64,000 nt of DNA from Alphaproteobacteria bacterium (GTDB lineage: Bacteria; Pseudomonadota; Alphaproteobacteria; Rs-D84), in the NCBI GenBank assembly GCA_017615655.1, contig JAFZZS010000003.1, positions 1 to 64,000 of the forward strand. Reading direction: 5' to 3'. A program made the position numbers and the translations under genes. Shown here one piece after another: positions 13,680 through 36,500 of the stretch. The notes beneath the pieces were generated by a model that did not search any database, was not told the origin of the DNA, and saw only the letters and a list, made by a program, of their open reading frames with translations. Every line of letters starts with the position of its first letter. Position 1 is the stretch's first letter.

Positions 13680-14222
13680 ATGAAAAACAAATTGTTTTTA
13701 TTGACTTTTTTGGCAACGGCGTTGTTCGTGGGAACGGCTGATGCGGTGTGTCCGGTATGCACAATTGCTATCGGTGCGGGTCTTGAAGGCATGCGTATGA
13801 TGGGTGTCAAAGATGTGATCAGTGGCATTTGGGCGGGGGGATTAACTTTCTCGCTGATTGGATGGACCGCGAACTATATGCATGCACATGGTATAAAAAG
13901 TAAATTTTGGTATTTCTTAAATCCTGTGGTTTACCTTGTATTGTTATGCAGTGTGTATTTTATACCGCATGGTCATCCTATTGTTCAGTGGTGGGAAAAT
14001 TGTATGTGGGGTGTAGACCAATTTATGTTGGGTGCAATTGTTGGTGCAGTTGTATTTGTATTAATGGAATTGTGGTATATGCGCATCAAACGTAACCATG
14101 GTGGGCATGCGTTGTTCCCATTTCAAAAGGTTGTTATGCCGTTTGTGGGGTTGTTGGTGGCAACTGGAATATTTTGGTTGATAGTTAGTTATCTGCCAAA
14201 GTTCGGCATCATCTTGTGCTAA
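13680..14222 (+). CDS. Polytopic membrane protein with periplasmic CPVC motif, function unknown
   Basis: This 180-residue protein has a hydrophobic N-terminus ending TADA, which could be a cleaved signal peptide. It is followed at once by V-C24-P-V-C27, a CxxC pair like those of thiol oxidoreductases or metal sites. About four further membrane segments follow (roughly residues 46-66, 78-96, 112-131, 150-172). HGHP and NHGGH may add metal ligands. I recall similar proteins (CP[LV]C..A.GAG, then SGLW.GG) in uncultured bacteria including candidate phyla, without a known function; this is memory, not a search. The ATG has a good AAGGAAAGG. The soluble protein at 14254 starts 31 bp downstream, so they probably form a pair. 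Confidence 0.85.
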   Translation: MKNKLFLLTFLATALFVGTADAVCPVCTIAIGAGLEGMRMMGVKDVISGIWAGGLTFSLIGWTANYMHAHGIKSKFWYFLNPVVYLVLLCSVYFIPHGHPIVQWWENCMWGVDQFMLGAIVGAVVFVLMELWYMRIKRNHGGHALFPFQKVVMPFVGLLVATGIFWLIVSYLPKFGIILC

Positions 14223-14253
14223 GGTTTTATCTATTGAAAGAAAGGAGAAAATA

Positions 14254-14841
14254 ATGGAAAAAGGCAGTAAAAAAATGTCTTTGGAAGAAATGATAAAAAA
14301 GGTGGATGATTCCAAGAAAGTAAATCCACTTGATTTGTCGTCTGATCAAGATTTATCTATCGCCCTTATGAATTTAGTGTCACTTGAAGAGCATTTCTTT
14401 TTTAGCGGTGCAAAAACAAAAAAGCCAGGATTTTATGATCTGATAAATGTCGTTCGCGAAATGCGCAAAGAATTGATGGAAAGAATTGTTGATAAAAATG
14501 CGGCCCAGGGTGGCGAAGTTTGGTGTATATCTAAACATTTGTTGGCGGCATCAATGCGCTTATACGAGGTGGGCACCAAGGCAATGGGCGCCGGAAATAA
14601 AAAAGATGCGTACAAGATGTTTGAAAAAGCATATGAGCTGTATTCTTTGTTCTGGGGTCTGAATATGAAGATGATAGATTTGGCAGGGGTAAAGCAGATG
14701 GAGCCCGAGCTTTATGGGGTCGCTGTAACAAGTTCCGACAAAAAGGAAAAAGATGTTAAAACCCAAATGTCTGAATCTAAATCTACAGTACGAAAACTGG
14801 GCGAATGGGTAAGGAATGCGGTTAATTGTTGTATAGAATAA
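14254..14841 (+). CDS. Soluble helical protein paired with the CPVC membrane protein
   Basis: The 195-residue protein has no signal peptide. It is predicted mostly helical from residue ~30 to 155, with LVSLEEHFFFSGAKTKKP, a charged REMRKELMERI helix, VWCISKHLLAASMRLYEVG and a TPR-like DAYKMFEKAYELYSLFWGLN segment. The last ~40 residues are a charged linker and an amphipathic end. I do not recognise a named family; I recall EEHFFF / SKHLLAASMRL-type proteins beside the same membrane gene in other uncultured lineages, which would make this a conserved pair. AAAGGAGAA lies 6 nt before the ATG. Role unknown; binding the cytoplasmic face of its partner is a guess. Confidence 0.85.
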   Translation: MEKGSKKMSLEEMIKKVDDSKKVNPLDLSSDQDLSIALMNLVSLEEHFFFSGAKTKKPGFYDLINVVREMRKELMERIVDKNAAQGGEVWCISKHLLAASMRLYEVGTKAMGAGNKKDAYKMFEKAYELYSLFWGLNMKMIDLAGVKQMEPELYGVAVTSSDKKEKDVKTQMSESKSTVRKLGEWVRNAVNCCIE

Positions 14842-14860
14842 AAATCGGTGAAATTTGATG

Positions 14861-14890
14861 TTGACTCAAATTATTGAAAAATATTATAAT
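14861..14890 (+). promoter_or_regulatory. Strong promoter of the fibre-protein operon
   Basis: TTGACT and a perfect TATAAT are separated by 18 bp. Transcription would start near 14897, leaving a very short leader that holds the GGGAGA ribosome binding site. No further promoter of similar quality was seen before the terminator at 26828. Confidence 0.8.
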
Positions 14891-14910
14891 CGCAACAGAA
14901 GGGAGAAAGT

Positions 14911-17307
14911 TTGAGCACACAAGAAAGATTTTTTTCTTGTTTTCTTGGCGTATTAGCAATATTAAGCCTTGGGTTTGGCGCGCATGGGGCGTCGCCAACT
15001 AACCCGCGTGCATCCGATTCGGACACCGCCCCCAGACAAATAGAAAATGAAAATATTGTACGTCGTGCAATGGTTGGCACTACGCGTATTCGTTCGGGTC
15101 AAACCCGCACAGGAACTGCGGTTGTTGGACGTGGTGCGATGATTAATTCTGCGGCAAGATTGGCGTCACCGGCAACACGCGTACGCGTGCGTACCGCCAC
15201 TGTGCCTGCGGATACATCACGTGTTGCACGCAGTGCAAAGCCAAATGCACGTTCTGGTAAGAATTCCGTACTTAGTACATCAAACATATCGCGCAGTGCG
15301 GTGGTACGTGCAACTGCCCTTTTCAATGACGTTAGCAAGATTGGCTCGGGGTATGCCGGTTGTCGCGAATCGTACGCAACTTGTATGGATCAGATATGTG
15401 GTCAGGCAAACGATACATATCGTCGCTGTTTCTGCAGTGACCGTTTTACACAGTTCCGCAAGACCGAGGATGCATTAGACAAGGCGGTATTGTTACTGCA
15501 ACAATTCCAAGATAATAATTTAAATGCAGTTGATAAAACCGCGGCGGAAGTAAATGCGATGTATTCCGCAACGGTTGGTGAACAGGCTATTAAAAAAGAT
15601 ACCAGTGCGTCTGCAAAATTATTGAACGAGATAAATGATTTGTTGTCTGGGAAATCATCTTCGGTTACGACATCAAAGTCTACTTCATTAGGTGTATTAG
15701 ATTTGGATTTCTCTACGGATATGGGTGATATATGGTCTGGTGATGGTGGTGGGTCGTTATTTTCATCTTCTGGCCAAGATTTATCGGGGCTAGAGGGTGC
15801 CGCATTGTTTAATGCGGCGCAAAAGCAATGTTCACGGTTAACACAAAGTATGTGCGAGAATGATGCGGTGTTTTCAATGTCCAAATCTTCGTATAACATA
15901 TTGATATCCCAAGATTGCAATGCATATGAAAAGTCTTTAAGTAAAAAGCGCGAATCTGTGGCTCAGTCTGTTCGTACCGCTGAAAAATATTTGCGCGAGG
16001 CACGTTTAGAGGAATATCGTTCACATAATTCCCAGGATGTTAATGAATGTATTGCCAAGGTTCGTTCGGCTGTATTGGCTGACACCGCGTGTGGTGAAAA
16101 TTACAAACGTTGTTTGGATCCGACTGGCGCGTACATTAATGGTGCCACGGGCGAGGCAATTTACTCACCGCGTCTGTTCAAATTGGAACAAACTATTGAC
16201 ATTTCCGGTGATATTTCTGGCGATGTATTAAAAGATAATAAAGATTATGATAAATTCTTGGATGTTTATCGCAAGTATGTGACGCGTGAATTAGACACTT
16301 GTCGGGACATTGCTGATTTTGTTTGGACCGAATTCAAACGTAATGCAATTATTGAAATTGCACAGGCACAAACAAATAAAATCGAAGAAGTTAAAATGTC
16401 CTGTGTTAGTACCATGGCAGAGTGCTATGATACACAGACCCAGGCATTGATAGATTTCGACAAGAATACTGCAACCGCGGCGGGTGCATTGGGTCGTTAT
16501 ACGGCGCGCGATATGTGTCGCGAGAAGGTTATTGCCTGTGCTGCACTATACGGTAATAATGATGGTAATAAATGTTCGTTTGATCAACGCGGACATCTGG
16601 TCGGTGATAATGCAACCTGTGGTTTACAGGGATTAATTAATTACGTTTCAACTGTCGATTCATTAAATGTTGTTGAGAAGTGCAACGCGGCCATAGATGA
16701 ATATGTCGAAAAACTTTGCACACCTGATGATGGCAAGTATGAATATCCATATAAGTGCAAAGGAATGTCACCTGTTTACCAAAAAGACAATAATATGAGT
16801 CTGCCATATGTTATTCAGCAATATGCGGCGGCAAACTGTTCTGATATTTCGACCAATCCGGACAAAAAGTATGACTTACTTGACGCACAGATAAAAACAC
16901 GTATTGATTCGGCAGTTGCAGATATAAATAATGGTGTGCGTATGGCCTTGCGTGAGGTCTGCGAGGAGATGGAGGGTCACTGGTATAGTTCTGATGCGAA
17001 TGGTACCCCACCAAATGATAGTACTATTGGGGCAAACAGACTTGGTGCGTTTTATAATGCAGTTTCTGGTCGTGGGGTACAAGATTCCACACTTGAAAAG
17101 TGGGGTGTCTGCTATGAAAACAGCAGGATGCTTGCGTGTCTTGCATATAATTCCAACGAAGGTGCTGATGGCGAAGTAACCACCACCAACGTTGCAACAT
17201 GGGATTCCACACGTGAACAATGTACGTTTACGGAATCCTGGTACGAAAACAAATGTCAGGAGCTTGGCGGATATTACGCGAATAGCAACTGTTATATCGG
17301 AGATTAA
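14911..17307 (+). CDS. Cys-rich exported protein, first gene of the fibre operon
   Basis: The product is ~798 residues. The start is TTG at 14911, chosen because GGGAGA lies just upstream and an export signal follows (hydrophobic core FLGVLAILSLGFGAHGA). After the signal there is an Arg/Ala/Ser/Thr-rich low-complexity stretch (residues ~25-140, motifs such as VARSAK and SRSAVVRA). The rest is helical with paired Cys: G-C-RESYATC-MDQIC (~149-163), RRCFCSD, CSRLTQSMC, ACGENYKRC, SCVSTMAEC, MCREKVIAC, KCNAAIDEY..LC, and WYENKCQELGGYYANSNC at the end. I recognise no family. Three fibre-like genes follow on the same transcript (38-50 bp gaps), suggesting a role in assembling or displaying them. 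That role is inferred. Confidence 0.85.
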   Translation: MSTQERFFSCFLGVLAILSLGFGAHGASPTNPRASDSDTAPRQIENENIVRRAMVGTTRIRSGQTRTGTAVVGRGAMINSAARLASPATRVRVRTATVPADTSRVARSAKPNARSGKNSVLSTSNISRSAVVRATALFNDVSKIGSGYAGCRESYATCMDQICGQANDTYRRCFCSDRFTQFRKTEDALDKAVLLLQQFQDNNLNAVDKTAAEVNAMYSATVGEQAIKKDTSASAKLLNEINDLLSGKSSSVTTSKSTSLGVLDLDFSTDMGDIWSGDGGGSLFSSSGQDLSGLEGAALFNAAQKQCSRLTQSMCENDAVFSMSKSSYNILISQDCNAYEKSLSKKRESVAQSVRTAEKYLREARLEEYRSHNSQDVNECIAKVRSAVLADTACGENYKRCLDPTGAYINGATGEAIYSPRLFKLEQTIDISGDISGDVLKDNKDYDKFLDVYRKYVTRELDTCRDIADFVWTEFKRNAIIEIAQAQTNKIEEVKMSCVSTMAECYDTQTQALIDFDKNTATAAGALGRYTARDMCREKVIACAALYGNNDGNKCSFDQRGHLVGDNATCGLQGLINYVSTVDSLNVVEKCNAAIDEYVEKLCTPDDGKYEYPYKCKGMSPVYQKDNNMSLPYVIQQYAAANCSDISTNPDKKYDLLDAQIKTRIDSAVADINNGVRMALREVCEEMEGHWYSSDANGTPPNDSTIGANRLGAFYNAVSGRGVQDSTLEKWGVCYENSRMLACLAYNSNEGADGEVTTTNVATWDSTREQCTFTESWYENKCQELGGYYANSNCYIGD

Positions 17308-17345
17308 AAAACAAAAAAAACAAAAAACAACCAAAGGACGAAACC

Positions 17346-20300
17346 ATGTTTGATAAAAAAGCATTTATTGGAATAGTTGCGGTAACACTTTGTGCGCAAA
17401 GCGCACTGGGTGCGGCAAGTGTGCGGACAGTTGGCGGTCAGAATGCCACCACAAGTACCGCTGCGCGTGCGGGCAGCCTGCGGGCTAATCCGACCAAGAC
17501 GGCGTCTTCGGCAACGTCGCAGCCGTCATTGTCGCAAAGTTATTCATCTAGCAGTGCAGACACATCGCGTTTGGCGACCGCATATGCCCCAAGCATCGGA
17601 ATTAAAACGAACAAGCTTGTAAGCAGTACGTCAAGCACAGGTTTAGCCCTGGACGAATTGGAACGTCGTATTAATGAATTGTCCGGCGAAGTCGAAGAAA
17701 AGTTGGATACCGGTGAATTCGAAAGCGCGTTTGATACACGTGCCGAACAAAGACAATTGGCCGACCAACCATACGTTCGTGACTACGTTGATACCAGTTC
17801 ACCTGACCTTAGTAGTTATGCTACAAAAGAATTTGCTACTGAAAAGGCAACAACAGCGCAAAGATCTGCGGAAACGACCGCAAAGTCTTATACCGATGAA
17901 AAATCGGCAACTGTTCAGCGTGCCGCCGAGGCAAATGCAAAATCTTATGCTGATACAACCTTTGCAACCAAGACAAACACATATACCAAGGCCGAGGTTG
18001 ATGCAAAAATTCCAGACGAAGTGGATTTATCAAATTACTATACAAAGTCCCAGGTTTATAACAAAGGCGAAGTAGAGGCAATGATTCCGGACGATGTAGA
18101 TTTATCGAATTACTATACAAAATCTCAGTCTGATGGCAGATATGCCGCCGCGGGTTCATCATATACCAAGTCTGAATCTGATGCGAAATACCCTGCTGCA
18201 AGTAATGTTTATACAAAATCACAAGTTTATACCAAGGCCGAAGTTGATAGTTTGACACCAAATGTTGATTTATCAAACTATTATAACAAGTCCGAAGTTG
18301 ACGACAAAATTGATGACGCTATTACCGGTGGTCAGGTTGACTTGTCTAATTACTACAAGAAATCTGAAACTTACAGTAAGACAGAAGCAAATAACTTGCT
18401 TAGTTCAAAGTTAGATTCTACAACAGCGGCAAGCACATATGAAACCAAAGGAACCGCATACAGCAAATCCCAAACAGATAATTTGTTAAGCGGTAAACTT
18501 TGCGCGAATCCGGACTTTTCAGTTCAACATACCGAAGGTGCAACTACCGCGACAGTTACCGTTAAATGTAACAATGTAACCCAGGGTTCATTTGTTGTTC
18601 CGGTTGGTTCTGGCACCGGTGGTGGCGAGGCATGTGGTGTTACAATGACCAAGACCGCGTTGAAACAAGATACAACAGATCCAACCAAGATTACTGGTTA
18701 CAGATTACAATTCAAAGATTGCAATGGCCAATCAGTTGGCGATCCAATCGATATAAATCATGGTGTTGACGGTGCAGATGGTCAAGATGCCGAGGCCCCA
18801 GATCCATGCGAACCTGTATTTACGACTGCCCAGATTACAGAAGGCACCAGAACAGGTTTCCAAATCACGATGAAGAGTTCTTGTAATCCAAGTGCCACAG
18901 GCAAAACGTTCAAGATTTATAATGGTGAACAAGGTGCGGCAGGAACGGGTATAGAATACCAAGGTATCGTTGCTAATTGTACTGAATTAAAGACCCATAA
19001 TGGTGCACCACAGGGTCATGCATGGTATAAAGCAGATAACAAATTGATGTATATATCTGATGGAACATCCACATCGTTTAATGACTGTCCGAATGGTGGT
19101 GTAGACTTCCAGGGTCAGCCAGGAACCGACGGATGCAGTCCGACATTGGATATTAGCGATAAAGTTTCCGGTTGCTATACCGTAACATTAACTCCATTCT
19201 CGCTGAATTCGTCTGGTGTATGCGCGCCGGGAACCGCAATCACAAGACAACTTTGTGATTCTGATCCGTCATGCGCCCCGGTTGCTCAGATGGTTACAAA
19301 CCGCGATGCGACCAAAAAGTGCAAGACATTATCAATACAAAAGATGAAATGGAACAAAACCGCACAACGTTGTGATGAAGATGGTGATCCGACAAGTACA
19401 CCTGTCTGTGAACCATGTCCTGCAACCAAGATTGTAGATAGTGCACCAAAGACAAATGGCTGTATCGACAGAACGACGACACAGTATACGTTTAATGAAA
19501 CAACGCAACAGTGTGACGAAAGTTCGACAACAGTTGAACGTTGCCCGATTCCATCATGTCCGGCAGTTGCGCAAATGGTTCAAGATCGTGCTTTGTCACA
19601 GTGTACTATATTCAGAGTGCAGAAACAAAAATTGAATGCAAGCAAGCAATGTGTTGACGATGGTGATCCAACAGATACACCAATCTGTGATCCATGTCCG
19701 GCACCGGTTATTACAAAAAATCTAAAGACCAATGGGTGCTATGACTTGGTAACAACCAGTTATACCTTGAATTCAACAACACATCAATGTGATGCCAGTA
19801 CATCAACAGTTGAACATTGTCCGTGTCCGACGGTTGCTCAGATTGTTACGAACCGCGATTCAACAAAGTGTCGTGTTCTTAAAGTAACTCCACAGAAATT
19901 GAATTCTAGCAACCAGTGTGTTGACGATGAAAGTGCATCAACAGAAACTCAAATCTGTGATTCATGTCCGGCACCGGAAATCACATATAGTGAACCGAAT
20001 GCGACTACAGGATGCCGTACCCGTACAACAAAAACGTACACGCTTAATGCAACAACGCACCAGTGTGATGCATCAACATCGACATTCCAGGAATGCCCAA
20101 TACAACCATTGCATGCATGTGCTGCATCGGTTGCAATTGAAAATGTTCGCGCAGGCGGAACGGTGTGTAAGCAGTTGAGTGTCCAGGAAAGAACATATAA
20201 TCCGACCACCCAAAAGTGTGAAGATGCTGATACAGATCCACAGGTGACAACACTTTGTGATTCATGTCCGGCCTCGACTACAACACAAGGCAATCTGAAA

Positions 20301-20792
20301 TCGAATGGCTGTTATGATATTACAACGACGAATTACGCATATAATTCTTCGACCAATCAGTGTGATGCGACTACTTCTACCAAGGAAGTGTGTAATGGTC
20401 ATGCGATTGCATGTGCGACAGCTATAAGTGCAGTGGAAACGACACGCGGTGACGCTGGTCAAACAAGAACCAAATGCTATCAGATAACCACACAGGCCCA
20501 AAAGGTTAATAGCGCGGGAACCGCATGCGTACCTGATGGTGATGAGGTGGTGACAAACATTTGTGATGGTCAGGATGGTGTAACCCCAACAGTATCATTT
20601 AGAACTGAAACAGATTCTGAGGGTAAGGTTCACATAATTTCTTCTGTTAATAATGTTGAACAGGAAATTGGAACTATAGAAAAACCGACATTGGCATCTG
20701 CGTGTCCAGCAGGAACACATCTGGCAACTGAAACCCGCCAAGAAAGTGGCTCAACCAGAGCAAATATTACTCTTGTCTGCGTTGAGGATTAA
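17346..20792 (+). CDS. Fibre-like exported protein with phage-tail-type and Cys-rich repeats
   Basis: This is a 1,148-residue exported protein (signal peptide to ~residue 21, ending ALGA). An Ala/Ser/Thr/Arg linker leads into repeats of the form YYTKSQVYxKxEVDxxIP and DLSNYY (~155-375), a pattern known from trimeric phage tail fibres. Next comes a domain with a conserved Cys, then a Gly-rich stretch and the module GTGIEYQG...NCTEL...HAWYK...CPNGG (~535-590), shared with the next two genes. The second half is ~6 Cys-rich repeats of ~65-75 residues built from C-D-x-CPAPxIT...GCYDxxTTxYxLN...QCD, alternating with VAQMVxxRD...C units. Trimeric fibre structure is inferred. RBS AAAGGA. No anchor is visible at the C-terminus (ITLVCVED). 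Confidence 0.88.
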   Translation: MFDKKAFIGIVAVTLCAQSALGAASVRTVGGQNATTSTAARAGSLRANPTKTASSATSQPSLSQSYSSSSADTSRLATAYAPSIGIKTNKLVSSTSSTGLALDELERRINELSGEVEEKLDTGEFESAFDTRAEQRQLADQPYVRDYVDTSSPDLSSYATKEFATEKATTAQRSAETTAKSYTDEKSATVQRAAEANAKSYADTTFATKTNTYTKAEVDAKIPDEVDLSNYYTKSQVYNKGEVEAMIPDDVDLSNYYTKSQSDGRYAAAGSSYTKSESDAKYPAASNVYTKSQVYTKAEVDSLTPNVDLSNYYNKSEVDDKIDDAITGGQVDLSNYYKKSETYSKTEANNLLSSKLDSTTAASTYETKGTAYSKSQTDNLLSGKLCANPDFSVQHTEGATTATVTVKCNNVTQGSFVVPVGSGTGGGEACGVTMTKTALKQDTTDPTKITGYRLQFKDCNGQSVGDPIDINHGVDGADGQDAEAPDPCEPVFTTAQITEGTRTGFQITMKSSCNPSATGKTFKIYNGEQGAAGTGIEYQGIVANCTELKTHNGAPQGHAWYKADNKLMYISDGTSTSFNDCPNGGVDFQGQPGTDGCSPTLDISDKVSGCYTVTLTPFSLNSSGVCAPGTAITRQLCDSDPSCAPVAQMVTNRDATKKCKTLSIQKMKWNKTAQRCDEDGDPTSTPVCEPCPATKIVDSAPKTNGCIDRTTTQYTFNETTQQCDESSTTVERCPIPSCPAVAQMVQDRALSQCTIFRVQKQKLNASKQCVDDGDPTDTPICDPCPAPVITKNLKTNGCYDLVTTSYTLNSTTHQCDASTSTVEHCPCPTVAQIVTNRDSTKCRVLKVTPQKLNSSNQCVDDESASTETQICDSCPAPEITYSEPNATTGCRTRTTKTYTLNATTHQCDASTSTFQECPIQPLHACAASVAIENVRAGGTVCKQLSVQERTYNPTTQKCEDADTDPQVTTLCDSCPASTTTQGNLKSNGCYDITTTNYAYNSSTNQCDATTSTKEVCNGHAIACATAISAVETTRGDAGQTRTKCYQITTQAQKVNSAGTACVPDGDEVVTNICDGQDGVTPTVSFRTETDSEGKVHIISSVNNVEQEIGTIEKPTLASACPAGTHLATETRQESGSTRANITLVCVED

Positions 20793-20833
20793 TCTCGGGG
20801 AATAAAAGATAAAATACAATAAGGGGTAGGAAT

Positions 20834-22717
20834 ATGTATAAAAAAATATCTTTTGGAGTAATGTTAGCGACGGTGGCGACGTTGATGGCACCACGGGTTG
20901 TATCCGCAGATGATACGGTAACGCTTGCTCAATTTGACCTGGATTTGTCGGGACTTGTGGGACCTGCTGGTCCCCAGGGGCCCGCCGGAACCGGTATTAA
21001 TTACAAGGGCGAAGTTGAAAACTGTACTGAATTGGCGGCGTTAACAGGTATGGCTGATGGCGATGCCTGGTATAATAGACAGGATACCCTGCTCTATATT
21101 TACGAAGGTAAATTTCCATCATGCCCGGACGGTGGTGTGCCATTTCGTGGTCCCGAAGGACCCCAGGGTAAACCCGGTGATGATGGTAAACCGGCTTGTG
21201 CGCCAAAGGCTTCTAGCACTCAGTCCCTGGATCTAAGCGCTGGTGTAAGATGTGTTACAACGACACTAACCCCGATGGTTTGGTCGTCACAATCAAGATC
21301 TTGTATCGTTGACCTAAAACAAGAAGTGGTTGAATCAAAAGTTTGTGATGGTGCAAAGGGACTAACAACATGCCCACCGACAACTGTTGAAACAACAGAA
21401 ACGACCAAAGAAGTAAATGGTCAAACGCTTACCTGCTCGCTTGTGCGTGAATATGCAATGGAATTAGATTCCAAGGGCAAGTGTTCCAAAGTTGACCCAT
21501 CAACCCCGACAAAAGAATCTGAAATCTGCCAGGGGTTAAAGGGACAGGACGCCGAGAAAGTTTGTGCACCGAAACTTGTAATGTCGTCCAAGGATGCGAA
21601 TGGTTGTGTTATGATAACACGGACTGAAACATCGGCGATTGGCGATAATTGTATTGATGGTGCGACAACAACCGAAACGGTCTGCGATGCCGAAGAAAAA
21701 TGTCCGGTAAAGGTTACAAAGACCGAATCTACGGAACGCGTAAACGGCCAAGATGTTGACTGTGCAACGATAACTACGCGGAACCAGGTGTTTTCAAAAA
21801 CATCAAACAAGTGTGTTGACGATCCAAACAGCACCGCGGAAAGCACAAAAATGTGCGCCGGCGCAAACGGTACAAATGGTGGCGACGGTACTTCCTGCAG
21901 CACAACGCAAAAAGAACTTGCCGAAGGTGTGTTCAAAATTGGAACCAAGTGTGGTAATAACCCAGTGGAAGAAACCATAATTAAAACACCGTGCGATAAT
22001 GCGGTTAAAGTTACTGATACAACAGTCGAAGGTAAAACATGCAAATTCACCCAAGTGTTACCGCAAACCAGAGATGATAAGGGTACTTGTGCGGTAGAGG
22101 TTGGGGCAAACCCAATCACCAGTTACACGACATGTAATGGCACTGATGGTAAGGACCCAGAATGTCCGAACAGTATTACAACATCGACCGTTACACAAAG
22201 TGGTAAACAGTGTACCAAAGTTACAGAAGTGGCTCAGAAAATTGGTAAAAATGGTTGTGCCATAGATAGCAGTGCTACCGCCAAAGAATCTGTAATCTGC
22301 CCGGGTGACAATGGTGAAGATGCACCATGTCCGAACGAGACCGCGGTAACCGAATCCAGCAAGGAAGTTGATGGCAAAACAGTAACCTGTGCTAATTTGA
22401 CTACGTATCGTGCATCGCGTGTAAATGGATCGTGCGTAGCTGATTACACTCAGCAAGTTAGTGCTAAACAGGTTTGCGACGGTAAAGATGCACCTGACAC
22501 AATATTCACTGCTGAAACTGATTCTGATGGCTCGGTAAAGTTCTATGCCAAGACAGGTAACGCAGAAAAGGTTCTGATGGGTTCATCGGCACCACAAACG
22601 ACCTGCCCGGCAACGTATCCATATGGACCGTATACAGCCGCAAGACAGAGTGTTGACAGCGAGGCTGATACTAATACAGTCCATGTAGAAGTGTACTGTT
22701 CGAAAACCGCGCAATAA
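20834..22717 (+). CDS. Collagen-like, Cys-rich exported fibre protein
   Basis: This 627-residue protein has a signal peptide (cleavage near VVSA, residue ~25). A short lead LAQFDLDLSGL enters Gly-X-Y triplets (GPAGPQGPAG), then the Cys-stapled module GTGINYKGEVENCTEL...GDAWYN...CPDGGVPF, then more triplets (GPEGPQGKPGDDG). The remainder is Cys-rich repeats of ~60-70 residues: CPxxxTxTExxxxxNGQxxxC..., ending ICxGxxG or CDGxxG, often with a Gly-X-Y remnant between repeats. The C-terminus (TIFTAETDSDGSVKF..., VHVEVYCSKTAQ) resembles the end of the gene before it. Its first ~60 residues are close to those of the next gene, so the two are paralogues. RBS GGGG/TAGGAA. Collagen-like trimerisation is inferred from the triplets. 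Confidence 0.88.
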   Translation: MYKKISFGVMLATVATLMAPRVVSADDTVTLAQFDLDLSGLVGPAGPQGPAGTGINYKGEVENCTELAALTGMADGDAWYNRQDTLLYIYEGKFPSCPDGGVPFRGPEGPQGKPGDDGKPACAPKASSTQSLDLSAGVRCVTTTLTPMVWSSQSRSCIVDLKQEVVESKVCDGAKGLTTCPPTTVETTETTKEVNGQTLTCSLVREYAMELDSKGKCSKVDPSTPTKESEICQGLKGQDAEKVCAPKLVMSSKDANGCVMITRTETSAIGDNCIDGATTTETVCDAEEKCPVKVTKTESTERVNGQDVDCATITTRNQVFSKTSNKCVDDPNSTAESTKMCAGANGTNGGDGTSCSTTQKELAEGVFKIGTKCGNNPVEETIIKTPCDNAVKVTDTTVEGKTCKFTQVLPQTRDDKGTCAVEVGANPITSYTTCNGTDGKDPECPNSITTSTVTQSGKQCTKVTEVAQKIGKNGCAIDSSATAKESVICPGDNGEDAPCPNETAVTESSKEVDGKTVTCANLTTYRASRVNGSCVADYTQQVSAKQVCDGKDAPDTIFTAETDSDGSVKFYAKTGNAEKVLMGSSAPQTTCPATYPYGPYTAARQSVDSEADTNTVHVEVYCSKTAQ

Positions 22718-22767
22718 TAAAACAACGAGATTCAAGAAAAAATAATTAAAACGAAAGGAGAAAACAC

Positions 22768-25700
22768 ATGATCAAAAAACTATCACTTGGGGTAATGCTG
22801 GCGACCGTGGCCACATTGACGACATCCCATGTGTCTTGGGCGGCTGATACGTTCACGCTTGCTCAATTTGACCTGGATTTGTCGGGACTGCAAGGTCCGG
22901 CGGGAACCGGTATTAATTACAAGGGCGAGGTTGAAAATTGTACCGAATTGGCGGCAAAGACGGGCATGGTCGATGGCGATGCATGGTATAACCGCGATGA
23001 TACCCTGCTCTATATTTACGAAACCGAACGTGGTGGTTTCCCATCCTGTCCAAATGGTGGTGTTCCGTTCCGCGGTCCCCAGGGTGAACAAGGCCCAACA
23101 GGACCAGCCGGTCCGACGGGGCCCACTGGCCCGCAGGGACCTAAGGATTGTGCAAAGAAAATTGTTGCAACCGCAACAACAGTTGACACAACGAGGGGCA
23201 CTCAAATCATTCAGAAAAACTGCACTCAAATTGAAACATATGCTATGAGATATAATAACTCTACCAAAGAGTGCGAACAGGTAAGTCAAAAACCAGAAGA
23301 CACCCAAACTGTATGTGATGGTGACCAAGGTAATGATGGTAATGACGGTACAAATGGTTGTGGTGATATCGTAGAGATACAAGAAACTTCAAAAACTGTT
23401 AGTGGTAAAACAGTTGCTTGCAAGAAAGCGAATTACTTCAAGGCAAAAATGAACACTGCAGGTACAGCGTGTGAGAAAGCCGCCACAACAGCATATACAT
23501 CCGCAGAAACTTGTGATGGTCCCGCAGGTACTGATGGTAATGACGGTTTAACCAAATGTTCGCATGCGGTTATACCAACTGCTACAACACAATCTGTTGA
23601 AAGAGATGGTAAAGCAGAAACACTAGATTGTGTGAGACTTGATGAATTTGAAGCAGATTATGATGACAATTCCAAAAAGTGCGTCGTCAAATCAGGTGCC
23701 ACAGCAATAAGTTCAAATACTGTATGTAGTGGTAAACAAGGACAAGATGGTAATAATGGTACAAATGGTTGTGGTGATATCGTAGAGATACAAGAAACTT
23801 CAAAAACTGTTAGTGGTAAAACAGTTGCTTGTAAGAAAGCGAATTACTTCAAGGCGAAGATGAACACTGCAGGTACCGCATGTGTAAAAGCCGCCACGAC
23901 AGCGTATACATCTGCAGAAACTTGTGATGGTCCCGCAGGTAATGATGGTAATGACGGTACAAATGGTTGTGGTGATATCACAGAAGTAACGAACACCACA
24001 AAAACTGTTAGTGGTAAAACTGTGAATTGTAAAAAAGCTAGCTACTTCAAGGCGAAGATGAACAGCGCAGGTACAGCATGTGAGAAAGCCGCCACAACAG
24101 CATATACATATGCAGAAACTTGTGATGGTCTAGCAGGTAATGATGGTAGAGATGGTTGTGCTCCTAGGGTTACTCAAGGTGAGATAGATCCAAAAACTGG
24201 GTGCTATGATATAACAACACAGAATATGGCCCTTGTAAATGGTGTTTGTGTGGCAGATGGAGACCCGATAGTCAAAAAAATGTGCAGTTCATGTCCTGCA
24301 TTGCTAACAACCGCACAAGTTCAAGTTACAGATCGTGCAGATTCAAATGTAAAACTAAATTGTACAAGAATTACAAGCACTCCACAAGTGATGACCAGCG
24401 ATGGTTGCGCCACTGATGCCAATGCAGATTCAATCGTAACGGACGTTTGTGAAGGTAAACCTGGTACTGATGGTAATAACGGTACAAATGGTTGTGGTGA
24501 TATCGTAGAGATACAAGAAACTTCAAAAACTGTTAGTGGTAAAACAGTTGCTTGTAAGAAAGCGAATTACTTCAAGGCGAAGATGAACACTGCAGGTACC
24601 GCATGTGTAAAAGCCGCCACAACAGCATATACATCCGCAGAAACTTGTGATGGTCCCGCAGGTACTGATGGTAATGACGGTACAAATGGTTGTGCGGATA
24701 TCACGGAAGTAACAAATACAACACAAACTGTCGATGGTAAGACGGTAAATTGTAAGAGAGCTAACTACTTCAAGGCTAAGATGAACACCGCAGGTACCGC
24801 ATGTGAGAAAGCCGCCACAACAGCATATACATATGCAGAAACTTGCGACGGTAAACCGGGTGACACCGGACCGGCATGTCCGTTGACATTCACAACAACA
24901 ACTGGATCTGACAGCACTGGTGCGTACACCAAGGTCACTTTGAAAGATTGCAATGGCACAACTGCCGGCCAAGACTTCAAAGTGTATGATGGTCAACCTG
25001 GTACTGCTGGCGAGGGGTGCAATACCTTCACGGGTCAGAAAGTTGATCCAACTGGCTCGGTTACATTAAGTGCTGCCGGATTGACATCTAGTGATATTAA
25101 TAATCAGTCAACGTTGTATGCAGCGCCTGGTGGATTTAAAACAACAAAAAATGACACCTGCAACAACGTAACGACAACAGAATATGCTCCGGATGCCTGT
25201 GCATTGATAAAGGTATCAAGAAAGAATGCATCCAGCAACGCATATTCGTTGTATGAATGTACAAGTCATAAACAATGCACTGGCACAACATGTACCGCCG
25301 AAAAATATTATGTTGCAACGCAGAACGCAGTTGCGACCAAGGTATTGACCGCAGATGCCAAAGCGGATGCAGCACAATCCGCAGCCGATGCAGCACAAGA
25401 AACTGCGAACGGTGCATTGCAAGCAGACAGTAATGGTAAATTGCCATCCAGTAAGTTACCAGCGAACACCGTGGTAGACGCAGATTACGCAACGGTTAAA
25501 GCTAATGCGAATTCTGCATTGCAGTCTTTGCCATCAAATGTTGTTACAACAGAAACTAGTGGTACGATAGCATTAAGTAAGATACCAACACTCACATCTG
25601 CTAAGTTACCGAGTGGAACTGTAATTGACAGCACATATTCAAGTGTTAAGACAAAGGCGAATAATTCGTTGCAGAAAGATAGCACTACTGGAAAGTTGTC

Positions 25701-26805
25701 TGCCAGTGATTTACCAGCAAACACCGTAGTAGATGCAGATTATGCAACGGTTAAAGCTAATGCAAATTCTGCATTGCAGTCTTTGCCATCAAATGTTGTT
25801 ACAACAGAAACTAGTGGTACGATAGCATTAAGTAAGATACCAACACTTACATCTGCTAAGTTACCGAGTGGAACTGTAATTGACAGCACATATTCAAGTG
25901 TTAAGACAAAGGCGAATAATTCGTTGCAGAAAGATAGCACTACTGGAAAGTTGTCTGCCAGTGATTTACCAGCAAATACTGTAATTGATGCAGATTACGC
26001 AACGGTTAAAGCTAATGCGAATTCTGCATTGCAATCTATACCGTCTACGTATGTTCAGACAACCAATGGTAAGATTGCGGATAGTTTGATATCTGATACT
26101 ATCAAGAATGGCGCTGCGGCTGGTGCAACAGCGTTACAACCAGACAGCAGTGGTAAATTGCCAGCCAATAAATTGCCATCAACTGCGGTTACAACAAGCA
26201 CATTTGGTACTCAGTTGACTAATAATTCAACATTTACAACTGTACAGGCCAATGCGGCAAAAGCAGCGGATGATGCAGCAGAGGCGTTAGAAGAAGCGAC
26301 AAGCGCATCATCCTTGGCAAGTCAAGCAAAGGCTACGGCGGATACAGCGTTGCAACCAGATAGCAATGGTAAATTGCCAGCTGCTAAATTGCCGGCAAAC
26401 ACCGTAGTAGACAGCTCATACTCAACTGTCAAAACTAATGCAAATAATGCATTGCAACCGGATAGCAGTGGTAAATTGCCAGCCAATAAATTGCCATCAA
26501 CTGCGGTTACAACAAGCACATTTGGTACTCAGTTGACTAATAATTCAACATTTACAACTGTACAGACCACAGCAAATGGTGCAGTACAGAGTTCAGGACT
26601 TGAAAATGCTATTATTGCTCTCTTGAACGCTGATACATGTAACCCGCAGGTTAGTTCAAGTGAAGGTGGTGGAAGTGGATTGGGGACTTCTGGTAAGACA
26701 ACGTATGACCCAAATTGCGGTGACGGATTGTTAAACGCAATTGCTGAAAAGTTGGCACCACTGTTTGACCAAGCTGCGTCTAACGTACACCCGGCAGAAA
26801 GATAA
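22768..26805 (+). CDS. Long collagen-like exported fibre protein with tandem duplications
   Basis: The 1,345-residue protein has a signal peptide ending VSWA-A, then LAQFDLDLSGL, Gly-X-Y triplets, the NCTEL...CPNGG module, and a longer triplet run (GPQGEQGPTGPAGPTGPTG). Five Cys repeats of the GCGDI(V/T)E type follow (~residues 195-700); three are nearly identical at DNA level. After a GEGC-NTF domain the C-terminal third (~865-1310) has no Cys and consists of repeats LQPDSxGKLPAxKLPANTVVD and TVKxNAN of phage-tail-fibre type, including a 255-bp tandem duplication. Short Ala-rich coiled-coil-like segments are present (AKADAAQSAADAAQETA; EALEEATSASSLASQAKA). It ends the operon, followed by a terminator. 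RBS AAAGGAGAA. Surface role is inferred; no anchor is visible. Confidence 0.88.
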   Translation: MIKKLSLGVMLATVATLTTSHVSWAADTFTLAQFDLDLSGLQGPAGTGINYKGEVENCTELAAKTGMVDGDAWYNRDDTLLYIYETERGGFPSCPNGGVPFRGPQGEQGPTGPAGPTGPTGPQGPKDCAKKIVATATTVDTTRGTQIIQKNCTQIETYAMRYNNSTKECEQVSQKPEDTQTVCDGDQGNDGNDGTNGCGDIVEIQETSKTVSGKTVACKKANYFKAKMNTAGTACEKAATTAYTSAETCDGPAGTDGNDGLTKCSHAVIPTATTQSVERDGKAETLDCVRLDEFEADYDDNSKKCVVKSGATAISSNTVCSGKQGQDGNNGTNGCGDIVEIQETSKTVSGKTVACKKANYFKAKMNTAGTACVKAATTAYTSAETCDGPAGNDGNDGTNGCGDITEVTNTTKTVSGKTVNCKKASYFKAKMNSAGTACEKAATTAYTYAETCDGLAGNDGRDGCAPRVTQGEIDPKTGCYDITTQNMALVNGVCVADGDPIVKKMCSSCPALLTTAQVQVTDRADSNVKLNCTRITSTPQVMTSDGCATDANADSIVTDVCEGKPGTDGNNGTNGCGDIVEIQETSKTVSGKTVACKKANYFKAKMNTAGTACVKAATTAYTSAETCDGPAGTDGNDGTNGCADITEVTNTTQTVDGKTVNCKRANYFKAKMNTAGTACEKAATTAYTYAETCDGKPGDTGPACPLTFTTTTGSDSTGAYTKVTLKDCNGTTAGQDFKVYDGQPGTAGEGCNTFTGQKVDPTGSVTLSAAGLTSSDINNQSTLYAAPGGFKTTKNDTCNNVTTTEYAPDACALIKVSRKNASSNAYSLYECTSHKQCTGTTCTAEKYYVATQNAVATKVLTADAKADAAQSAADAAQETANGALQADSNGKLPSSKLPANTVVDADYATVKANANSALQSLPSNVVTTETSGTIALSKIPTLTSAKLPSGTVIDSTYSSVKTKANNSLQKDSTTGKLSASDLPANTVVDADYATVKANANSALQSLPSNVVTTETSGTIALSKIPTLTSAKLPSGTVIDSTYSSVKTKANNSLQKDSTTGKLSASDLPANTVIDADYATVKANANSALQSIPSTYVQTTNGKIADSLISDTIKNGAAAGATALQPDSSGKLPANKLPSTAVTTSTFGTQLTNNSTFTTVQANAAKAADDAAEALEEATSASSLASQAKATADTALQPDSNGKLPAAKLPANTVVDSSYSTVKTNANNALQPDSSGKLPANKLPSTAVTTSTFGTQLTNNSTFTTVQTTANGAVQSSGLENAIIALLNADTCNPQVSSSEGGGSGLGTSGKTTYDPNCGDGLLNAIAEKLAPLFDQAASNVHPAER
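23350..24664 (+). repeat. Three near-identical 181-bp repeats inside the fibre gene
   Basis: Copies start at 23350, 23761 and 24484 and are each 181 bp long with only a few base differences, encoding the GCGDIVEIQETSK Cys repeat. Two more diverged copies lie at about 23962 and 24685. The near-identity points to recent duplication or gene conversion. Confidence 0.85.
25481..26045 (+). repeat. 255-bp tandem repeat inside the fibre gene
   Basis: Two consecutive 255-bp units (from 25481 and 25736) differ at only a few, mostly synonymous, positions; a third, partial unit starts at 25991. Each unit encodes 85 residues. The period keeps the reading frame, so copy-number change would alter fibre length without breaking the gene. 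Confidence 0.9.
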
Positions 26806-26827
26806 TTATATGTCGGTCTAAACAAAA

Positions 26828-26855
26828 AAACACCGGTCGTTTGATCGGTGTTTTT
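26828..26855 (+). terminator. Terminator of the fibre-protein operon
   Basis: An 11-bp stem with a GTTT loop and one G-T pair is followed by TTTTT, 22 bp after the last operon gene. Confidence 0.85.
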
Positions 26856-26885
26856 ATTGTTTTACTTTATTATACAAACGGTATG

Positions 26886-26925
26886 GTAAATAAAAAAAGA
26901 CACCCCGGCGTTTGCCGGGATGCTA
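26886..26925 (-). terminator. Terminator of the XRE regulator gene
   Basis: Read on the minus strand, a GC-rich stem around CCCGGC/GCCGGG with a four-base loop is followed by CTTTTTTT, about 35 bp after the regulator stop. Confidence 0.7.
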
Positions 26926-26957
26926 TATTACTATTCACTTACCAATTACACTACCAA

Positions 26958-27371
26958 CTAATCACTTACTGTAAAACTTTTTAATATGTTCATAATCGCC
27001 TCGCGCTGTGCATCGTTTGGCAATTTCCAATACAGTTTTATTAACTCAAGACTTTCTGTGCGTGTCAATGGGTCATCATCGCTTGGTTGATGCGCACGCA
27101 TTGAACGGGTCGCCTTGGTCTCGTCCGGTAAATTTCCTGGTAGCCCAGTAAAGAAAAACGATACCGGTGTCTGCAGCGCCAAGCCTATTTCAAATAAACG
27201 TGACGCAGATACACGATTGTCCGCGGTCTCGTATTTTTGGACCTGTTGAAACGTAACACCGCACGCCACCGCCAAATCTTTCAGCGACATGCCCATCATC
27301 GTGCGCCGTAACTGCATGCGGTGACCAATGTGTTGATCAATTGCATTTGGAAGAACTGCTTTGCCTGACAT
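26958..27371 (-). CDS. XRE-family helix-turn-helix transcription regulator
   Basis: The 137-residue protein has an N-terminal XRE/Cro-C1 DNA-binding domain (~residues 12-70): HIGHRMQLRRTMMGMSLKDLA, the turn CGVTFQQVQKYE, and NRVSASRLFEIGLAL. A C-terminal helical region (EXLELIKLYWKL and REAIMNILKSF patterns) probably serves dimerisation. This length and layout are typical of many alphaproteobacterial XRE regulators of unknown regulon. AGGGG precedes the ATG. It diverges from gpmI across a compact region in which both promoters use the same palindromic -35 hexamer, so binding there could control both genes; autoregulation is inferred. Confidence 0.92.
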   Translation of the reverse strand: MSGKAVLPNAIDQHIGHRMQLRRTMMGMSLKDLAVACGVTFQQVQKYETADNRVSASRLFEIGLALQTPVSFFFTGLPGNLPDETKATRSMRAHQPSDDDPLTRTESLELIKLYWKLPNDAQREAIMNILKSFTVSD

Positions 27372-27409
27372 TTCATTTCCCCTTTTATGTTTTGTGTCCT
27401 ATGATTTGT

Positions 27410-27461
27410 TTTATACTATTTTTCTTTTTGCTTTGCAATTAAAAAAGCCATGTGCTATCGT
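27410..27461. promoter_or_regulatory. Back-to-back promoters sharing one palindromic -35 hexamer
   Basis: TTGCAA (27433-27438) is its own reverse complement. Rightward it is followed after 17 bp by TATCGT (27456-27461) for gpmI. Leftward it is followed after 17 bp by TATAAA (27410-27415, minus strand) for the XRE gene. Only one polymerase could use it at a time. Confidence 0.6.
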
Positions 27462-27495
27462 TTGTGCAACAAAGTTATAAAATGGAGAAAAAGAA

Positions 27496-28968
27496 ATGGG
27501 AAAACCAATCGTTTTGTGTATTCTTGATGGCGTCGGATATCGCCCAGAACGTGCGCATAATGCCGTTCAATTGGCAAAAATGCCGTTTTTTAATAAACTA
27601 ATACGGCAATATCCGAATTCATTCCTGCGCGCCAGTGGAACCGCCGTTGGTTTGCCCGGAAACCTGATGGGAAATTCCGAAGTCGGACATATTTGCATCG
27701 GTGCCGGACGCGTCGTGATGCAATATCTGTTGCGGTTCGCACGCGAAGATTGGACGCAAAACAAGCCGTTAAATAATTTTATCGCCGCAGTAAAACATGA
27801 TGGCGGTATTGTGCATTTCGCAGGTCTGATGTCTGATGGGCGGGTGCATTCTGATGTGTGCGATGAAATGAAAATTGCAAAGTATATTCTGGATTCAGGG
27901 CTGCGCGTTTGTATTCACTTTATTGGCGATGGGCGCGATACACCGCCAAAGTCCGCAATGAAATATGTCCGCACAATTAAGCGAATATTGGCACCCTATT
28001 TCGCAAATGGTCGCGCATTTTTTGGAACACTGTCGGGACGGTATTGGACCATGGATCGTAACAAAAATATGGATCGGACAGAACTGGCGTTTGATGCATT
28101 GGCGCATGCAAAATCTGATCAGACGGCGGCAACAATCGAAGATGCAATCAAAGAATCCTATGCAAAGGGTGTAACCGATGAATTCTTTAAACCGACCGTC
28201 ATTAAACCAACCCCAATAACAAAACGTGATGGGTTCATATTCGGAAACTATCGCAGTGATCGCGCCCGTCAAATTGTTCGCGCAATGCTGAATACAGGGG
28301 CGCATATGCTGTGTTTTTCACAATATGGCGAAGGATTAAACGAACACTGTCCGGCACTGTTGTCCGATATTCCTGTAAATAATACATTGGGTGATGTTAT
28401 CGCGGAATCTGGTCTTTCACAGTTACGAATTGCCGAAACTGAAAAATATAATCATGTAACCTATTTCATGGATGCAGAACGTACAATCGATTTCAAAAAC
28501 GAAGAAAAAGTCTTGATCGATTCTCCGGCGGTTGCCACATTTGATATGAAGCCTGAAATGTCCGCAAATGAAATTACAGCGGCATTGTTACCACGACTTT
28601 CAAAATTTGATGTCGTGATGATGAACTTTGCCAATGGTGATATGGTCGGACATACTGGAAATGAATCCGCGGCAATTCGTGCCATGGAATGTTTAGATAA
28701 ACAGTTGGGAACAATCGTCCCCGAGGTATTAAAACTTGGTGGTGAAATGCTGATTATTGCCGATCATGGTAATGCAGAAACCATGTGGGACGACAAACAC
28801 AACACACCATGGACCGCCCACACAAATAACAAGGTACGGGCAATTCTGGTATCAAAACCAAAATATAAAAAAATTAAAAATGGCGGTCTGGCGGACGTTG
28901 CACCGACAATTTTAAAGATGCTGGGTGTCAACCAACCCGTTGATATGACAGGTAAATCGTTAATTTAA
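27496..28968 (+). CDS. gpmI: 2,3-bisphosphoglycerate-independent phosphoglycerate mutase
   Basis: The enzyme interconverts 3- and 2-phosphoglycerate in glycolysis, using Mn2+ and a phosphoserine intermediate. The 490-residue protein belongs to the alkaline phosphatase superfamily: ILDGVGYR with metal ligand Asp11, and MGNSEVGH with nucleophile Ser61. GDGRDTPP and SGRYWTMDR are substrate-loop motifs. NFANGDMVGHTG and ADHGNAETM supply the remaining metal ligands. AATGGAGAAAAAG lies before the ATG. It is monocistronic with a terminator after the stop, and diverges from the XRE regulator. With the phosphofructokinase at 52617 it supports a working glycolytic route. Confidence 0.97.
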   Translation: MGKPIVLCILDGVGYRPERAHNAVQLAKMPFFNKLIRQYPNSFLRASGTAVGLPGNLMGNSEVGHICIGAGRVVMQYLLRFAREDWTQNKPLNNFIAAVKHDGGIVHFAGLMSDGRVHSDVCDEMKIAKYILDSGLRVCIHFIGDGRDTPPKSAMKYVRTIKRILAPYFANGRAFFGTLSGRYWTMDRNKNMDRTELAFDALAHAKSDQTAATIEDAIKESYAKGVTDEFFKPTVIKPTPITKRDGFIFGNYRSDRARQIVRAMLNTGAHMLCFSQYGEGLNEHCPALLSDIPVNNTLGDVIAESGLSQLRIAETEKYNHVTYFMDAERTIDFKNEEKVLIDSPAVATFDMKPEMSANEITAALLPRLSKFDVVMMNFANGDMVGHTGNESAAIRAMECLDKQLGTIVPEVLKLGGEMLIIADHGNAETMWDDKHNTPWTAHTNNKVRAILVSKPKYKKIKNGGLADVAPTILKMLGVNQPVDMTGKSLI

Positions 28969-33483: not shown

Positions 33484-33597
33484 ATGAAAGGAAGTGAAAT
33501 TCAACACAACCCGCGCAAATCAGGCCGTTTTTGCGGGTTTTGGCGTTTGATTTTACCGACACATTTCATAACACAGGTCTTCGGAGGGACACTATGA
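33484..33597 (+). CDS. Putative 37-codon leader ORF overlapping the giant gene start
   Basis: ATG at 33484 lies 6 nt after the candidate -10 box; the frame stays open for 37 codons and stops with TGA overlapping the giant gene's ATG as ATGA. The peptide is basic and aromatic (RKSGRFCGFWRLILPTHF). An inverted repeat AACCCGC/GCGGGTT followed by TTTT (about 33508-33542) lies inside it, as in attenuators. Unlike the other mini-ORF, the downstream gene has its own strong GGAGGG. No coding evidence beyond the frame and position. Confidence 0.35.
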   Translation: MKGSEIQHNPRKSGRFCGFWRLILPTHFITQVFGGTL

Positions 33598-36500
33598 GAC
33601 GGTTTTTAGGTATATTGTCATTTGGTTTGATTGCGTTATTTGCGAATGCAACTTATGCTACAAACTATAGCATCAGTTACGTATATAACGATCCCAAGTT
33701 TACTGGATATTCTTATGTTAGCTATATCAGAGGTACCGGTACACAATATATAAACACCGGGTATAATCCAACCGCGACCACAAGAACAGAAATTGATTTA
33801 CGTTTTTCATCGGACACATATAAATCAAGTGGTGGCAATACGATATTCGGCGTGACCGGTACCAGTGATAGCTATTATGTAAATTTTGGTAATGATTCAA
33901 ATCAAGGACTCATAATTTTTCCATGGACCTGTAAGTATCAGGTAAATGGATGCGCAGCAAATAATTTTAGTATCGCGTCAAACTTAAAAACCTCTAAACA
34001 AACATTGGTATTGGATGCTAAAAATAAGATCGCATTGTATGGATCAACAACGAAGTCTTTAACACAAACACCTGTTGTGCCGACGAATGCACCAATATAC
34101 TTATTCGCCTTGAACCATGCAGACAATAACTCAGCCACTATCTATGCTCGCAATAATTCGATGGATGTATATGGTACAAGAATTATTGAAAATGGAACAT
34201 TAAGACACAACTTCGTTCCTATGATGCGCAATTCAGATGGGGTCTGCGGTTTGTATGACATGATAGATCAAGAATTTTTCCCAAGCGAGACATCAACTGA
34301 TTTCATTTGTGGTGACGCGCTAGATGGTTTCCCAACCAGTTATATATCTGGCAATGGCGTGCATATAACGGGGCAACCAACACGCGCAGGATACGCCTTT
34401 GCGGGTTGGTGCACAGATTCGGCATTAACCGATTGTGCAATGACACAAACTATTTCAACAAGTGCCACCGGGAATAAAGTATTTTATGCTAAATGGGCGC
34501 AGTTAAACGACGTTGGTTATGTTTTGGGATACGGAAACCATACTACACCAGAATATTTATACTCTGGTGATGTTGTTCCAAGTGACTATTCACCGACCGC
34601 ATATATTCAAAACATATCATCAACCAGAAATGATACAAACACCATAGATCTTGGGTTTACGGGATATGGCCGCTGGTTGATTGATGCCCAGGGTATGACC
34701 GCACCATCAGGTTATAATTCAGTGCTGTTTGGCTATAATACCAGCAGTCCGATTGGATGGTTTGGGGCAAACCCCGATGGTTTCTGGGCGGCACCAAACG
34801 TGCTAGTATTTTCAACTTTATTTACAACACGTACCACAATTGATGCGACATATTCATCAGGTTCGGCCACTATTACCATTGGTGATCAAACAAAAACTCA
34901 AACTTTGTCCGCACTATCCCAGGGAACATGGCGATTCTTTAATTACGAAGGTAATAATCCAACACTTGCCAAAATGTTCAGTGCAAAGTTTTATCAAAAT
35001 AATGAATTGAAATTTAATGGTATACCCGTTCGACGCAATAGTGATAATGTTTGTGGTATATATGATACAGTATCCAAGGCGTTCTTTACCAGCAGTGCAA
35101 AAACCAATTTTGTTTGCCCCGAATCGCGTACCCCCGACCAGTATGCCAGTGGCATTGCCAAAACAATTACATATATTCCACAAAGCGAAAACCAAAATCT
35201 TGAATTTGCGGGATGGTGTACGGATGCGACATTGACAGATTGTTCAATGAACCCAACAATTCCGACAAATGCAACCGGTCCACAAATATTTTATGCAAAA
35301 TGGTCATCTGGTGTGATAACTTATGTCACCAACGGGGGCAGCGTTTATAACACATCTGTTGTTCCCACCGCAGATTATACGCCAGTTGAATATTTGCAGA
35401 GTAACAGTTATTCATATATAAACACTGGTATTACCGGGCTTAACAGTGGAACATGGGAAATATATATCAAATGGATGATGACAAATGTTCCGCGCACAAC
35501 TAATGCATGGATTGTTGGTGAATATTATAATAATGGCAATACTTCGTCGTATCGTGTTGCCGCTATGAACAAACGGACAGATTATTATTATATTGATGCG
35601 GGTAACCGGTATAATCAAGCAAAGGGCATTACACTTTATCCAAATAAAATTCACGAGGTAACGTTAAAAAATAGATCATTTGTTGCGGACGGTGTAACAA
35701 CATCAGCGTCAACCGATTCAGCAAATGCTATATCGGCCAGTACACCAATCATGATATTTGCAAGTACGTCCAGTGGTGGCGATGCCGGCGTATATGGTCG
35801 TTTGTATGCATCATGGGCCAAGAAAGGTGGTGTATTACAATATAACTATGTTCCTGTGCGTCGTAACAGTGATGGTGTTTGCGGTATGTATGATACGGTT
35901 ACCGCAACATTTAAACCAAGTTCAAACGGAATTAATTTTTCATGTCCAAACACCGCTGTGTCTACGCCAGCAACATATACATACGGCGTTGCAACGACAA
36001 TATCGGGTGGTGCAACAAACTTGCATGGAACATTGGATGGATGGTGCACCGATGCGGCATTAACTAATTGTGCAGCCAGTCAAACAATTCCTGCAAATTC
36101 GACCGAAAACCAAACATTCTATGCAAAATGGATTTGTGATGATGGGTATCATATGGATTCTGTAACCCACGAATGTGTTCCGAACACAATTACCATGACA
36201 TTTGCAAATGGTGGACATGGAACTGCACCTGCATCAATGACATGCACATATGGTTCATCGGTTACTTTGCCGGCGGCGATTGATGATGCAACCGGGTATA
36301 ATTTCCGCGGATGGAAGATTAATGGTAAATGGTTTACGGCAAATACCGCATATATTTGCAGTTATGAAAATTTTGGGGTTTATGATACAACTGCTAACTT
36401 TGTTGCCGATTGGTATGAATGTATGGATCCGGGCGATGGTTCATGCGTTGACACTAAATTTAGTGTCACAACAACGCCACTGGGGGCAGACACAACATTT

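Follow-up and report, generated by a model that had tools for sequence, protein, structure and literature searches.

A recombining cassette of exported phage- and collagen-type fibre genes behind a core gene of Candidatus Enterousia

The operon and its genomic setting

We analysed a window of 64,000 nucleotides (64 kb) that belongs to a 0.95 Mb genome of Candidatus Enterousia (order Rs-D84), a gut alphaproteobacterium with a reduced genome and, in this case, probably a rumen species. Candidatus Enterousia has been described as having a genome of about 1 Mb with many biosynthetic pathways missing, and as presumably reliant on a so far unidentified partner (PMC12306168). No published surface system for Candidatus Enterousia was found in the literature, this paper included. 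The window contains four genes, here called A to D, with the following features in and around them:

13680..14222, + strand: membrane protein whose signal-like segment is closely followed by a CxxC motif (upstream context, two genes before A)
14254..14841, + strand: conserved 195-aa protein with no assigned function, adjoining A (upstream context)
14861..14890, + strand: probable sigma-70-type promoter TTGACT-18-TATAAT before gene A (motif scan; recurrence in relatives)
14911..17307, + strand: gene A, helical exported protein of 798 aa with a signal-peptide-like N-terminus and 29 Cys; genus-wide core gene
17346..20792, + strand: gene B, exported fibre of 1148 aa, conserved at both ends and variable between them, with tail-fibre-like repeats and Cys modules
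17973..18470 (approximate limits, read from the translation), + strand: phage-tail-fibre-like YTKxEVD repeats of B
18942..19115, + strand: NCTEL...CPNGG module of B
20834..22717, + strand: gene C, exported fibre of 627 aa with Gly-X-Y triplets, a trimer-type module and Cys modules
20987..21151, + strand: NCTEL...CPDGG module of C, between Gly-X-Y stretches
22768..26805, + strand: gene D, exported fibre of 1345 aa, last gene of the operon
22903..23076, + strand: NCTEL...CPNGG module of D, its fold predicted to be similar to that of the collagen XV/XVIII trimerization domain
23359..24852, + strand: stretch of D in which a 54-aa four-Cys module occurs five times, mostly flanked by GXY-like linkers
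25448..26037, + strand: 85-aa tail-fibre-like tandem repeat of D, 2.3 copies, 95% alike
26826..26855, + strand: intrinsic terminator with a 13-pair stem
26958..27371, - strand: HTH_3 regulator gene kept in congeners, right boundary of the variable slot

A sequence-only reading of this DNA had proposed a single operon with one strong promoter, short gaps, one terminator and a signal peptide on every product, and the layout that we found agrees with it. The four open reading frames lie at the positions given there, the gaps measure 38 nt (A-B), 41 nt (B-C) and 50 nt (C-D), each start is preceded by a Shine-Dalgarno-like sequence, and a 13-pair terminator stem lies behind D, none of the three gaps containing a + strand terminator-like site. 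All four N-termini look Sec-type when judged on sequence and hydropathy, the one of D falling below the hydropathy cut-off used for signal peptides. The promoter box before A is the best-scoring one of the region (11 of 12 positions), although such promoter-like sites, taken together, show no excess (20 compared to 29.6 expected from shuffled sequence). Since such matches are no commoner than in shuffles, recurrence is better evidence than a single match: TTGA(C/T)T-18-TATAAT stands 15-23 nt before gene A in most of the clade members checked, and distant species carry a weaker box (TTGATT with TAAAAT or TACAAT). The box recurs at a similar distance from the start of A, and the promoter is thus probably real. 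Its -35 element starts 20 nt past the stop of the upstream gene with no terminator between, so that read-through from upstream is possible. An Rfam search of positions 14000-27500 gave no match.

In the congener loci that we compared, the gene order dnaE-rsmH-(CxxC membrane protein)-(195-aa protein)-A-[slot]-HTH-gpmI is widely kept. The genes flanking A to D are dnaE, rsmH, gpmI and dnaK, not phage structural genes. The CxxC motif of the upstream membrane protein is present in 61 of 62 orthologs, and it is a guess that this protein could serve disulfide formation. Two further long frames lie on the + strand of the window. The first (3-3269) is open at the window edge and reads, over 1088 aa, like a Cys-containing exported repeat protein. 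The second (33531-52574), between dnaK and pfkA, is one frame of 6347 aa with a signal-like start, 132 Cys and Listeria-Bacteroides (InlB B-type) repeats within its first 1490 aa (PF09479, E 2.8e-22), and is predicted to be a giant surface protein; slots near it also hold long frames in congeners.

Gene A and the variable slot behind it

Among the 147 genomes searched, ortholog-level matches to A were obtained in about 79 of 86 congeners. The remaining seven, whose assemblies are mostly fragmented or incomplete, gave only paralog-level matches, and within Rs-D84 faint relatives extend to other families. In named records, the search for gene A returned 80 loci, several of them labelled Candidatus Enterousia, and the usual place of A in congeners is dnaE-rsmH-A-HTH-gpmI. 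Most of its 29 Cys are invariant genus-wide. About ten A paralogs are scattered among the housekeeping genes of its own genome, three of them in tandem after clpP/clpX-like genes on contig C9 (L096:5489-12924). Searches of A against Pfam, NCBIfam and PHROGs yielded nothing significant. The structure model of A is helical and overall of low confidence (pLDDT 68.5, pTM 0.41), its Foldseek search against the PDB gave no match better than E 1.9, and helical PDB entries with Z values of up to 8.6 were discarded as lying inside the background for helical proteins.

What follows A varies. In a census of the loci in named records, the slot behind A holds an about 400-aa Cys-rich exported family in roughly 55 loci, fibre genes in 13 (the window locus included) and a small family of ~280 aa in 3, and is empty in 7. 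In a dnaE+rsmH tree from a quick search, all ten fibre-bearing rows that it holds fall in one clade of 15 rows (SH-aLRT 100), together with four empty slots and one slot of the 400-aa type; samples of this clade are mostly from rumen or reticulum, or belong to the rumen genome (RUG) series. The order B-C-D behind A recurs in five other species, L103, L104, L105, L109 and L110, the third frame of L104 as read being without a signal segment, and in L101 it is cut by the contig end. In L106 and L107, a single long gene begins like B and ends like D, which links the genes as parts of one system. The species of L112 (G050) has a longer B plus three further genes, and B is between 269 and 1870 aa long in the members of the clade. 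Since A is kept without fibres and several clade members are fibreless, the fibres are dispensable. A simple replacement of the ~400-aa slot protein by fibres would be an incomplete account, as contig C4 of this genome (L214) still encodes a relative of that protein at 32%.

These data bear on the role of A, which the sequence-only reading had taken for a dedicated first gene of the fibre operon. If A to D formed one obligate complex with A as its dedicated assembly or anchor factor, one would expect A directly before the fibre genes under one promoter, as observed, and the B-type start gene does follow A in the fibre-bearing clade members. However, A occurs with the unrelated 400-aa protein or with nothing downstream, its closest ortholog (L098, 68%) has no fibre genes behind it, and a lone B-type gene stands on another, 11-kb contig of the same genome that has no A; we therefore regard an obligate complex as unlikely. 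Being kept genus-wide and having many paralogs, A is a core exported protein and not a fibre-specific gene, and the idea of a dedicated first gene is not supported. It had also been proposed that finding the four genes apart in related genomes would speak against a common system. On this point the outcome is divided: A exists without B-D, and so does a lone B-type gene without A on its contig. The four genes are a real operon carrying a lineage-specific, recombining cassette of exported phage/collagen-type fibres behind a core gene.

Architecture, phage relationship and recombination of the fibre proteins

As the sequence-only reading had noted, B, C and D share one module, its end reading CPDGG in C. 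The consensus, GxGIxYxGxVxNCTELx...GDAxYNRxxxLLYIYxGxFPxCPxGGVPFxG, applies to B, C and D as well as to the C-type genes of relatives. The collagen-type triplets reported for two of the proteins were recovered: the longest Gly-X-Y run exceeds that of shuffled sequences in C (2 of 1000 shuffles reaching it) and D (0 of 1000), and in B only the total does so (1 of 1000). The runs are short, with at most 8 triplets. C reached 9.9 bits with the Pfam model Collagen (PF01391, cut-off 27.2) and D 29.8 bits with the NCBIfam model SclB (cut-off 325), both scores lying below the cut-offs, that of D by far.

The tandem repeats of D have units of 198 bp, in two arrays (82-85%), and of 255 bp (95%); its five near-identical 54-aa modules and the 95% 255-bp repeat point to recent internal duplication. 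B orthologs agree over ~110 residues at the N-terminus and in a 'CPxG...Y.LVC' motif at the C-terminal end, and differ in the middle. The lone second B-type gene, near tyrS (L202:9625-11332, contig C12) has a nearly identical signal segment and a different middle. The genome holds many other Cys-rich exported proteins without known role, and a multi-copy exported family with tail-fibre-like wording and varied ends starts MKKILLTSI...KVTSKNYVDT (L213:7578-8825, L212:1373-1870 and L179:10521-11501).

The relationship of the NCTEL...CPxGG module to phage tail proteins is shown at the level of sequence. PHROG tail-fibre families were matched by C (3.6e-9) and D (1e-22), both to PHROG 3904, in matches that include the collagen stretches. 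The tail-fibre-like repeats that had been described for two of the proteins are present in B and D, but on their own they gave only weak phage matches. By tblastn against phage genomes, B had one weak match, to a Providencia phage (residues 255-354), and D had none. Collagen-rich proteins of three viral contigs (L203-L205) have the same module core, flanked by collagen triplets and without the two Cys; in L203, the module gene lies beside a gene reading like a large terminase. Giant exported proteins of 1313-1846 aa at other loci, L093, L091 and L092 (G061, G015 and G013), contain a module of the same kind in a more phage-like form.

Residues 40-262 of D were modelled as a monomer from 12 sequences, with a pLDDT of 77 overall and about 90 in the module. 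Foldseek hits of the D model in BFVD were mainly viral collagen-like and tail proteins, and a sequence search of the PDB with the module gave nothing significant. In a VIA-align comparison of the D module, Geobacillus virus E2 ORF18 and five collagen XV/XVIII trimerization entries were the top six of 998 chains (Z 5.2 to 4.4), the collagen entries being covered over nearly their full length with Z 4.4-5.0, which for this 54-residue domain is below the trusted range. A Z near 5 is not high and might stem from an arrangement found in many proteins. The phage K1 lyase, a depolymerase of solved structure, is trimeric and has one domain with the trimerization fold of collagen XVIII (PMC8822698). 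By analogy, we infer that the module would trimerize the protein in the manner of collagen XVIII and that its Cys pair would stabilise it after export.

Phage-type modules and PHROG tail matches would also be expected if B, C and D were prophage tail-fibre remnants kept in the chromosome with no role for the bacterium. We consider this highly improbable, since each gene has a signal-peptide-like start for which a phage tail fibre has no need, the interval bounded by conserved housekeeping genes contains no other phage gene, the long frames are intact with conserved ends in several species, and the Cys pair suits an oxidising compartment.

Recombination has left its trace between species. Between L110 and L105, identity is 98-100% along about 2 kb (end of B plus C), compared to about 90% in dnaE and A and 68-82% in D; likewise, a 252-nt segment of B is 98.8% identical between L110 and L101, with upstream flanks at 83-86%. 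This mosaic identity, with segments of 98-100% inside flanks of 83-90%, shows that fibre segments were recently exchanged between species. Parts of one operon thus differ in recent ancestry, as expected for exchanged receptor-binding parts.

Proposed function and comparison with known systems

The sequence-only reading had suggested a coordinated surface fibre system. What stands of it is the recurring B-C-D cassette with trimer- and phage-tail-type modules; the dedicated A does not, and the terms 'surface' and 'coordinated' would be presumptive. On balance, we favour B, C and D being secreted, trimeric, adhesive surface fibres in a variable slot, varied by recombination, and adhesion and surface display are likely. 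B, C and D would be Sec-exported and probably homotrimeric fibrous proteins, in which short collagen-like Gly-X-Y stalks may be nucleated by the phage-tail-type trimerization module with its Cys pair, with Cys-rich beta modules and then tail-fibre-like repeats following. The fibres would most likely be exposed on the bacterial surface, or shed from it, and attach to that of a partner or host, A may provide anchoring or assembly, and species would alter binding by gain, loss, lengthening and recombination of fibre segments. The analysis establishes the layout of the genes, their distribution over the clade, the phage relationship of the module and the mosaic exchange; that the fibres are trimers, cross the outer membrane through a pore, reach the surface and adhere, and what A contributes, is inferred.

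The genome encodes BamA, TolC-family proteins and a secretin next to a TcpQ-like protein, so that the outer membrane could be crossed. Beyond the signal peptide, no outer-membrane anchor or secretion signal was found in B, C or D: the YadA anchor model matched none of A to D, only a gene on contig C9, and LPXTG is absent from the C-terminus of D. The 1658-aa product of that gene (L213:2366-7342) combines Chlamydia PMP repeats with the YadA anchor and is a candidate trimeric autotransporter. Since no outer-membrane anchor was recognised, B, C and D may be located in the periplasm, and periplasmic or secreted structural proteins of envelope or matrix, rather than adhesins, would also accord with a genome rich in other Cys-rich exported proteins of no known role. 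However, a very variable length and recombination of segments between species typify exposed binding proteins, and we judge a purely structural role to be improbable.

Returning to adhesive surface fibres, a wider and more tentative proposal is a so far undescribed, recombining fibre system in gut alphaproteobacteria that depend on a partner, consisting of the genus-wide Cys-rich exported A and an exchangeable cargo slot downstream, in which disulfide-stabilised, phage-derived trimeric fibres might set partner specificity in the rumen clade. B, C and D are exported, change fast and occupy a fixed locus, and as such are direct candidates for partner recognition by Candidatus Enterousia; they are also a tractable recombinant target. 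Their make-up suggests that bacteria have reused a phage-type trimer module next to collagen triplets and have added cysteines to it.

Among known systems, B, C and D resemble phage collagen-like tail fibre and spike proteins, in the predicted fold of the module, which would be like that of the N-terminal domain of the Klebsiella phage K1 lyase (PMC8822698), in its position beside Gly-X-Y stretches and in the sequence match to viral contig proteins. Unlike the K1 lyase type, they have a signal-peptide-like start and a Cys pair in the module, and they lie in a bacterial locus without phage genes and with no lyase domain seen. The E. coli proteins EPclA-D are prophage-encoded collagen-like proteins whose PCoil and PfC domains trimerize (PMC3368898); they share phage-type modules with collagen and coiled-coil stretches with B, C and D, but sit in prophages and have other end domains. 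Legionella Lcl is secreted by a type II system, binds host glycosaminoglycans and promotes attachment to protozoa (PMC6617341, PMC11162425). Like Lcl, B, C and D are exported collagen-type proteins of a diderm bacterium, with a predicted adhesive role, but they are several large multi-modular proteins of one operon with short collagen runs, in which no Lcl-like C-terminal domain was identified. Streptococcal adhesins of the Scl1/Scl2 type have collagen-type repeats as well, whereas here there is no LPXTG anchor and the envelope is that of a diderm.
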